From assembly GCA_945884695.1 (NCBI GenBank), contig CAMCYO010000004.1, positions 1 through 56,647 of the forward strand: a stretch of DNA of 56,647 bases, given 5' to 3'. Within the stretch, counting starts at the first letter, position 1, and each line of letters begins with the position of its first letter. The position numbers were made by a program, and so were the translations under genes. Positions 51,613 through 54,132 of the stretch are shown piece after piece. The stretch is from Streptomyces griseus (lineage in GTDB: Bacteria; Actinomycetota; Actinomycetes; Nanopelagicales; Nanopelagicaceae). The notes below the pieces were generated by a model, which was not told the origin of the DNA, ran no database searches, and saw only the letters and a list, made by a program, of their open reading frames with translations.

Positions 51613-52005
51613 TTAGCCCTTCTTCTCAATGGAGTCGGCTATTGTTAAAAAGTTTGGGTTGACAGCAGAAACCATTCCAAGTGCATGGGCCGCCGAAGCC
51701 AATCTTTCAGGAGATGAAACATGAGCGATCGCGCGATTTGTAGCCTCGCGTTGATCACTCTGAGTTGTTGCCTGCAATTGGAGATGGCGAAGTTCGAAAG
51801 CATCCTGTCCGGAAAGAGTGTTGATAATAAGTAAGGTCAATAGACCAAGGACTCCGACTGCAGAGACAAATGCAACGAAATAACCTTGCCCAACTTTTTG
51901 TCCTGGTGCTACATCTGGTGCAATTGATAAGGCGATTCTGGCAGCCTTTTGAACGACTTTCTTCCTCGTTGTAGAAAATGGAGGGACTAAAGTAGTTATT
52001 GCCAT
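51613..52005 (-). CDS. ftsL: FtsL-like divisome membrane protein
   Basis: 130 residues: a basic cytoplasmic N-terminus of about 45, one membrane helix (FVAFVSAVGVLGLLTLLII, about 50-70), then a helical stretch rich in leucine and glutamine (ELRHLQLQATTQSDQREATNRA) that predicts a coiled coil. The C-terminal SSPERLASAAHALGMV resembles the septum-formation-initiator and FtsL tail. Sequence is poorly conserved in this family, so the call rests on topology and on its fixed position between rsmH and ftsI. TAATG overlap with rsmH. Confidence 0.85.
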   Translation of the reverse strand: MAITTLVPPFSTTRKKVVQKAARIALSIAPDVAPGQKVGQGYFVAFVSAVGVLGLLTLLIINTLSGQDAFELRHLQLQATTQSDQREATNRAIAHVSSPERLASAAHALGMVSAVNPNFLTIADSIEKKG

Positions 52006-52976
52006 TATGCGGCCACTCTTTCTATCGCACGTAGCCGCACTGATTGCGCTCTGGAGTTTTCTTCGATGTCAAGGGCTGTTGGCGTTTCACTATTTTTAAT
52101 AACGAAGGAAAATTTTGCTGCGAACTGAGGAAGATCAATCGGCAAATCTCGTGGCGTCAAGGAAGTGCAAGCCTTAACAAAAACTTCTTTGACAATGCGA
52201 TCTTCAAGGGATTGAAAAGACATAACAACAATGCGTCCACCCACAGCTAGCCCTTGGAGAGAATCTGGAATTGCCCTGCTCAACGCACCCAGCTCATCAT
52301 TGACTGCGATTCGAAGAGCTTGGAAAGTGCGCTTTGCTGGATTGCCACCAGTACGGCGAGTGGCAGCAGGAATATTTTCCTTAACGAGCTCGGCCAAAAA
52401 TGATGTCGAGTTAAGTGGAGCAACTTCACGCGCCCGAATAATCGCATCAACAATTCTTGGGGCAAATCGCTCTTCACCGAAATTGCGCAGAATCGAAATA
52501 AGCTCATCTCGACTGTAGGTGTTTAGGATGTCAGAGGCGCAAAGGCCACTACTTCGGTCCATGCGCATATCCAGAGGTGCATCCTTCGAATATGAAAAGC
52601 CCCGTTGGTTTTCATCAACTTGCATCGATGAAACACCCAGGTCAAAGAGAATTCCGTTGACTTTGTCATAACCAAGATCAGAAATAATCGAAAGTAGTTG
52701 ATCGTAAACCGCATGCACCGCTACGAATCGAGTGCCAAATCCTGCAAGTCGCTTGGTTGCCAGAGAGATGGCTTCAGGGTCTCTATCAATTCCGATGACG
52801 ACCACATTTGAATACTTCTTAAGAATCGCCTCGCTATGTCCACCAAGGCCAAGGGTTGCGTCCACAACTACAGGATTTGAAGTGGATTCGATTGAAGGAG
52901 AAAGTAGTGTCAGACAACGATTAAGCATTACGGAAATATGTTTGTCGCTAATTCGATCTTCGATCTTTCCTGACAT
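52005..52976 (-). CDS. rsmH: 16S rRNA (cytosine(1402)-N4)-methyltransferase
   Basis: Methylates C1402 in the ribosomal P site; 323 residues. HISVMLNRCL, the AdoMet loop DATLGLGGHSEAIL, GIDRDPEAI and DLGVSSMQVDENQRGFSY are the family blocks. The ATG at 52976 was chosen because GGGGGAG lies a few bases before it; an ATG 12 codons upstream lacks one. The 185-base gap upstream holds a large RNA structure. Confidence 0.96.
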   Translation of the reverse strand: MSGKIEDRISDKHISVMLNRCLTLLSPSIESTSNPVVVDATLGLGGHSEAILKKYSNVVVIGIDRDPEAISLATKRLAGFGTRFVAVHAVYDQLLSIISDLGYDKVNGILFDLGVSSMQVDENQRGFSYSKDAPLDMRMDRSSGLCASDILNTYSRDELISILRNFGEERFAPRIVDAIIRAREVAPLNSTSFLAELVKENIPAATRRTGGNPAKRTFQALRIAVNDELGALSRAIPDSLQGLAVGGRIVVMSFQSLEDRIVKEVFVKACTSLTPRDLPIDLPQFAAKFSFVIKNSETPTALDIEENSRAQSVRLRAIERVAA

Positions 52977-53027
52977 CTTCTCCCCCTTTCTTAGTTTTGC
53001 TTTGCATACCACTTGCTCTTTAGTTCA

Positions 53028-53161: not shown

Positions 53162-53593
53162 TTAGAACAGACCGGGGAATACCTCCTCTGAAACTTCGGC
53201 GAAACCTTTCTCGCGATCTGCCAGATATTCGTTCCACGAAGTTGCATCCCATATTTCAACGCGTGTGTTTGCACCTATAACTACGCAATCTTTTTCTAAC
53301 GCTGCATATGTACGAAGACTTTGCGGAATTGTTATGCGACCTTGACGATCAGGAATTTCATCGTGCGCACCGGCATACATAACACGCATGTAATCGCGAG
53401 CGCCTTTAGCAGTAACTGGCGCTTGTTTTAGTGATTGCGTAATTGATGCAAATTCACTTGCAGGAAAAACGTAAAGACATCTTTCTTGTCCTTTAGTAAT
53501 TACTAATCCTGGTGAAAGTTCTTCACGAAATTTTGCTGGAAGTATGAGTCGGCCTTTTTCATCAAGGCGAGGTTCGTGGGTGCCAAGAAACAT
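53162..53593 (-). CDS. mraZ: Transcriptional regulator MraZ
   Basis: AbrB-like DNA-binding protein of 143 residues that forms rings and controls the dcw cluster. Its two swapped-hairpin repeats both show the D-x-K/Q-G-R motif: [14 protein letters not shown] (about residues 10-23) and [13 protein letters not shown] (about 81-93). The ATG is preceded by AAGGGGG at eight bases. A long array of phased G-rich repeats just upstream is very probably its own operator. Confidence 0.96.
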
Positions 53594-53630
53594 GTAGCTG
53601 GCCCCCTTCCCCAGGTTCCAGAGTGATAAT

Positions 53631-53710
53631 TCCCCACTTTACTCCATTTCTCCCCCTTTTCAACCACCTTTCTCCCCTTTTCTCCCTTTTGGCCCCACTT
53701 TCGCCCCAGC
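53631..53710 (-). repeat. MraZ operator: seven to eight 10-bp-phased repeats
   Basis: Read on the mRNA strand from 53710 down to 53631, consecutive 10-base blocks are GCTGGGGCGA, AAGTGGGGCC, AAAAGGGAGA, AAAGGGGAGA, then AAGGTGGTTG, AAAAGGGGGA, GAAATGGAGT, AAAGTGGGGA. In every block positions 6 and 7 are GG, and A's occupy the left part of the last seven, so the series keeps exact helical phase. The consensus AAAGTGGGGN matches known MraZ boxes. The array ends 37 bases before the mraZ start and lies downstream of a terminator, so the mraZ promoter must overlap it or follow it. A TATCAC near 53624-53629 is a weak -10 candidate. Confidence 0.75.
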
Positions 53711-53732
53711 TTCGGAGGCAGATTTTGGGCAT

Positions 53733-53757
53733 AAAAAAAGACCCTCCTCAGGAGGGC
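53733..53757 (-). terminator. Rho-independent terminator of the DUF3040 gene
   Basis: On the minus strand GCCCTCC, loop TGA, GGAGGGT, then a run of seven T's. It starts about 22 bases after the DUF3040 stop. It isolates mraZ transcription from the upstream genes and is the clearest intrinsic terminator in the window. Confidence 0.88.
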
Positions 53758-53778
53758 CTCTGACTTTGAATCTAGGTA

Positions 53779-54132
53779 TTAACGATCGAAGTTACGACGC
53801 TCCCAGCGATCTTCTAGGCGAGAGCCAAATTTGGCTTTGCGAGCTTTCTTAGGCGCACGCAAGGTGCTCATCCCAGAAAATCCACTGATCATTGAGATAA
53901 GGCCAACAAGGGAAATCAGAAAACCGGCAACTCCCAGGGCCGGGGTTTGGGCAATAAGTCCAGCAAAAAGGATGATTAAACCAGCTACCAAGAAGCCTAG
54001 ACCAGCCAAAATGCGAGGACGTCCCGGATAGAGACGGGTGCCAGTGAGGGCTGAAACTAGGCGTGGATCATCGGCTGAAAGGGCTTGTTCCATCTCGGCT
54101 AAGAGAGCTCTTTCGTGATCAGATAATGGCAC
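53779..54132 (-). CDS. DUF3040 family small membrane protein
   Basis: 117 residues. The N-terminus PLSDHERALLAEMEQAL is the constant opening of the actinobacterial DUF3040 family, followed by two membrane helices (about 38-58 and 62-82) and a basic, arginine-rich C-terminal tail. Function is unknown. The family usually lies next to mraZ or dinB in actinobacteria, as here. The start is GTG with AAAGGGG about eight bases upstream; TAGTAT at 54157-54162 could be its -10 box. A strong terminator follows. Confidence 0.88.
   Translation of the reverse strand: MPLSDHERALLAEMEQALSADDPRLVSALTGTRLYPGRPRILAGLGFLVAGLIILFAGLIAQTPALGVAGFLISLVGLISMISGFSGMSTLRAPKKARKAKFGSRLEDRWERRNFDR

Follow-up and report, generated by a model that had tools for sequence, protein, structure and literature searches.

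Background

MraZ forms rings in which adjacent subunits can each bind one of a series of DNA boxes spaced at one helical turn, and the D-x-x-x-R motifs of the protein contact DNA. MraZ represses its own gene cluster (PMC8475190). The operator described in Mollicutes, (AAAGTGKN3)3, is made of three boxes with a 3-nt spacer (PMC5282649), and in Burkholderia MraZ binds four 7-nt repeats with 3-nt spacers (PMC7761207). A solved complex, 9sz7, contains, according to its PDB title, Mycoplasma genitalium MraZ with a four-box promoter, and provides a reference for two questions: in what way direct repeats are used by a closed MraZ ring, and what lies behind the variation in box number.

The window studied here is a stretch of 56,647 nucleotides in which an exceptionally long phased MraZ operator, of seven to eight boxes, had been predicted from the letters alone. 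The hosts, Nanopelagicaceae, are abundant freshwater bacteria with small genomes. Box sequence, phase, number and conservation, the position of the promoter and the way in which box E and the -35 hexamer trade off were all computed in the present work.

Results

Eight phased boxes upstream of mraZ

Direct repeats A to H, eight boxes covering 80 nt, lie upstream of mraZ on the minus strand, from 53711 to 53632, and enclose the two hexamers of a promoter:

53702..53711, minus strand: box A, AGCTGGGGCG; first box, position weakly conserved
53692..53701, minus strand: box B, AAAGTGGGGC; strong GTGGGG match, 1 base upstream of strict phase
53682..53691, minus strand: box C, CAAAAGGGAG
53672..53681, minus strand: box D, AAAAGGGGAG
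53662..53671, minus strand: box E, AAAGGTGGTT; its terminal TT forms the first bases of the -35
53652..53661, minus strand: box F, GAAAAGGGGG; its initial GAAA is the end of the -35
53642..53651, minus strand: box G, AGAAATGGAG; within the promoter spacer
53632..53641, minus strand: box H, TAAAGTGGGG; holds the -10
53658..53663, minus strand: -35 hexamer TTGAAA, from a consensus scan; TTGA in 78/102 family members
53636..53641, minus strand: -10 hexamer TAAAGT, from a consensus scan; TAAAGT in 101/102 family members

All eight boxes carry GG at columns 6-7 in a strict 10-base frame, and in boxes A and B the best GTGGGG-like match sits 1-2 bases upstream of that phase. With a box matrix trained solely on mraZ promoters from outside Nanopelagicaceae, the chain of eight boxes scored 40.6, whereas 500 dinucleotide shuffles averaged 8.5 and reached at most 20.7. 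A 4-box pattern with at most one mismatch gave 6 matches in the window (0.18 expected), and a pattern of seven GG in phase had the mraZ array as its sole match in the 1.48 Mb of the organism's own genome; this pattern is the same when reversed, so that its built-in control is uninformative. Besides the array, the 4-box pattern matched one further place in the genome, on contig C10, which falls inside an MFS-transporter-like reading frame and was taken to be a chance match.

The AAAGTGG of box H is an exact instance of AAAGTGK, the MraZ box of Mollicutes (PMC5282649), and the repeats as a whole conform to the MraZ box as it has been defined, with a GTG core and 7 nt followed by a 3-nt spacer (PMC5282649, PMC7761207). 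The lowest scores with the box matrix, 2.4-3.1 bits, were those of boxes E, F and C, and given these weak scores the three boxes could go unbound. The shuffles, the genome scan and the conservation described below confirm the array of eight boxes with its 10-base GG phase.

The gene that follows is a true mraZ

The array is placed directly upstream of mraZ, which heads a dcw operon (mraZ-rsmH-ftsL-ftsI) on the minus strand, and the DUF3040 gene and dinB are found upstream of it:

53779-54132, minus strand: DUF3040 gene, directly upstream of mraZ
53737..53761, minus strand: intrinsic-terminator-like hairpin, after the DUF3040 gene and just upstream of the array
53162..53593, minus strand: mraZ, 143 aa; PF02381 E 1.4e-39, TIGR00242 above cut-off
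52005..53012, minus strand: rsmH (mraW), TIGR00006
51613..52005, minus strand: ftsL, FtsL_Actino NF053549
49814..51610, minus strand: ftsI/PBP2-like transpeptidase

The product belongs to the MraZ family (PF02381/TIGR00242) and has both D-x-x-x-R-x-x-x-P motifs, the two D-x-x-x-R motifs being invariant in the alignment. Its closest named relatives come from acI actinobacteria, Candidatus Planktophila and Nanopelagicaceae. The predicted fold (pLDDT 88.6) matches Mycoplasma MraZ, with Z 20.0 and rmsd 2.4 over 138 residues in the comparison with 9sz7. The predicted identity of the array as an MraZ operator is supported by the gene downstream, by its position at the head of the dcw operon and by boxes that match AAAGTGK plus a 3-nt spacer. 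The DUF3040 gene, which adjoins the division cluster, is nearest to the SCO2097 family morphological protein, at a score below the NCBI cut-off.

A promoter embedded in the array

The consensus scan found one sigma-70-type promoter, TTGAAA-16-TAAAGT (0.1 expected), which is the sole promoter-like site of the region. Its -35 begins in box E and continues into box F, and after a 16-bp spacer the -10 falls in box H, so that the array overlaps the promoter and both hexamers are inside it. Transcription would start about 7 bases downstream of the -10, near 53629. The original prediction overlooked this promoter inside the array.

Box E reads GTGGTT in 72 of the 78 family members with TTGA, and GTGGTG, whose sixth base is the G of the canonical box, in 19 of the 24 without it. 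This contrast is partly built in, the TT of TTGA being the end of box E; its informative part is that G is back at the end of the box once the -35 is lost. Box E and the -35 thus trade off, with the same DNA stretch serving, as far as sequence can tell, both polymerase and repressor. The degenerate look of box E is due to this overlap: AAGGTGG had been called degenerate, but the core GTGG is present in 63/70 relatives and the start of the -35 lies within the box. A graded affinity had been proposed from such degenerate boxes, and promoter overlap is, at least in the case of box E, the better explanation.

The members without a TTGA -35 (24/102) have TGTAAA, TGCAAA or TGATAA instead and retain TAAAGT, and 14 of these 24 have GTGGTG immediately before the -10. 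They include L090, L092, L095, L102, L108, L111, L119, L121, L122, L129, L132, L134, L138 and L016.

Conservation of the array within Nanopelagicaceae

We anchored 102 Nanopelagicaceae sequences on the -10, leaving the upstream part unused for anchoring, and took from them a nonredundant subset of 70 whose upstream 60 bases are less than 70% identical. In these 70 relatives GG was in phase in 63% for box A, 90% for B, 86% for C and 100% for D-H, counts that are not independent because relatives share ancestry, and one step upstream of box A the value drops to 11%. Box H has GTGG in 70/70. The phase score of boxes A-D was 7.9, compared with -5.4 +/- 0.45 under random rotation, and the GG autocorrelation, computed over boxes A-E, has its maxima at 10-11 and 20-21 bases, which is the helical repeat. 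Three near-identical species differ at 7-10 of the 24 spacer bases of A-D, and their GG bases in these boxes are all the same (0/8 differ).

Strict runs comprised 5 boxes in 10 of the 70 relatives, 6 in 1, 7 in 16, 8 in 37 and 9 in 6. Runs of 7-9 boxes were consequently present in 59/70, when about 2.8 were expected with the upstream part randomly rotated. Loss of the 10-base phase in relatives had been named beforehand as the observation that would speak against the operator; the phase is kept, and the claim withstands this check. The description of the array as exceptionally long fares less well, since 7-9 strict boxes occur in 88/103 family sequences and its length is ordinary for Nanopelagicaceae.

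Some of the contigs are titled 'Bifidobacterium breve' or 'Streptomycetaceae bacterium' (L082, L085, L098, L099, L109, L115, L117, L130; L066, L090, L096, L125, L128). They carry a Nanopelagicaceae promoter and an MraZ 86-91% identical to that of the window; the titles look wrong, and the contigs look like freshwater Nanopelagicaceae.

Comparison across the class

Chance GG inflates box counts in high-GC families, and the free chain count was therefore supplemented with strict-phase counts and family-wise profiles. Among 21 other class members GG was in phase in 100% for boxes F, G and H, in 90% for box I, which lies downstream of the -10, and in at most 48% at positions upstream of F. Family-wise listings give the four-box form (F, G, H, I) in most class families. 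Box I is retained in 4/98 Nanopelagicaceae, a family that has lost this box and carries A-E upstream. About eight boxes, B-I, with nothing consistent further upstream, are found in two actinomycete families, f18 and f20; because of these the length of the array is not unique, and its description as exceptional is not supported at the level of the class either. By strict counts 7 or 8 boxes occur in 20/81 class sequences, partly by chance in GC-rich DNA.

Three further features were seen in these families. Family f20 (L305-L319) has a ninth box, AGTGG, placed 11 bases past box I. A CCAC....TGACCTGC-like stretch recurs in several class families about 60-90 bases upstream of the -10, and it lies upstream of the -35 in L039, L045, L161, L168, L207, L209, L216, L224, L225 and L226. 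No mraZ was detectable in any sampled member (G054, G117, G134, G149, G164, G175) of family f19, which comprises large-genome actinomycetes of 7-10 Mb.

Discussion

The array is very probably an autorepression operator placed over the dcw promoter, with more MraZ contacts than the four-box M. genitalium complex. Repression, ring binding and autoregulation by MraZ are drawn here from the known biology of the family. MraZ, the first product of the operon, would accumulate and fill boxes E-H over the -35, the spacer and the -10, and RNA polymerase would be excluded. Boxes A-D, upstream of the -35, would offer extra contacts on the same helix face and increase both affinity and cooperativity; they might occupy a larger part of a single ring or hold a second one. 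A cyclic ring with one subunit per box would be well matched by directly repeated boxes spaced at one helical turn, and the near-eight ceiling in three families would fit 1 x 8 and 2 x 4 alike. A bolder version, which we consider rather unlikely, is that 80 bp with one box per helical turn corresponds to a complete MraZ octamer; each subunit of one ring could then hold a box, the DNA would be wound around the entire ring as in a miniature nucleosome, and a number of about eight would be a natural ceiling (A-H here, B-I in f18/f20).

The working operator might instead consist only of E-H on the core promoter, with A-D a purine-rich stretch that resembles an UP element or is a remnant, and that serves no function for MraZ. 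Four boxes are the class standard, the spacers of A-D are highly variable, only 63% of relatives have box A in phase, and 10/70 relatives end at five strict boxes. Diverged relatives nevertheless keep the GG of B in phase in 90% of cases, that of C in 86% and that of D in 100%, despite these variable spacers, and the phase signal ends sharply after box A; we judge an operator restricted to E-H unlikely. The purine bias of the region (85% over 80 nt) and the weak 10-base arrays reported by Tandem Repeats Finder (67-71% matches) could also be read as chance or as a low-complexity repeat expanded by slippage, a reading made scarcely credible by the shuffle tests, by the single genomic place of the array and by a phase conserved over the long term with free spacers, the outcome that refutes it.

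Two other rivals have precedents at mraZ. A G-quadruplex has been reported to control the mraZ promoter of Staphylococcus aureus (PMC11796246), and in the present array a canonical G4 motif runs across A-D (GGGGCGAAAGTGGGGCCAAAAGGGAGAAAAGGGG), with a G4Hunter value of 1.35 over the array. That the G-rich strand controls mraZ in this manner is nonetheless very unlikely: the canonical motif occurs in 22/70 relatives when 17.7 +/- 2.9 are expected with the GG cores kept and the rest shuffled, so that four G3+ runs are not conserved beyond chance; it occurs in 0/21 other class members; and a quadruplex needs neither the 10-base phase nor the conserved GTGG. In Dietzia the mraZ promoter is bound by MtrA (PMC9602371), but the repeat unit is identical to the MraZ box of different phyla, and the array is predicted by a box matrix from other families' mraZ promoters, which makes it extremely unlikely that another regulator such as MtrA is its main user.

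Natural operators of seven or eight boxes, set beside near relatives with four or five, give a handle on stoichiometry, cooperativity and the trade-off between promoter and operator.

Comparison with known operators

The standard actinomycete mraZ operator-promoter (TTGAC..GTGGNG..GTGGNG TANNGTGGNG..GTGGNG) and the array described here are alike in the box, the 10-base phase and the placement of F, G and H relative to the -35 and -10; they differ in that most families have the four boxes F-I, whereas the Nanopelagicaceae array has lost I and has A-E upstream. The arrays of f18 and f20 have about eight boxes with the same core, but retain box I, the eight being shifted one step downstream (B-I) compared with A-H in Nanopelagicaceae. 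The Mycoplasma operator (AAAGTGKN3)3 and the four-box complex 9sz7 share with it the AAAGTGG box, the 3-nt spacer, the direct repeats and the MraZ fold, with three to four boxes against eight. In Burkholderia cenocepacia PmraBc the repeat unit and spacing are alike; however, its boxes cover the start site, downstream of the -10, and those of Nanopelagicaceae run upstream from the -10. The length of the array exceeds the three boxes of Mollicutes (PMC5282649) and the four of Burkholderia (PMC7761207), as predicted, but by the counts in the family and the class it is ordinary within Nanopelagicaceae and recurs elsewhere. Taken together, the array appears to be a known type of operator in an extended form that is conserved at the level of the lineage and conceals the core promoter.
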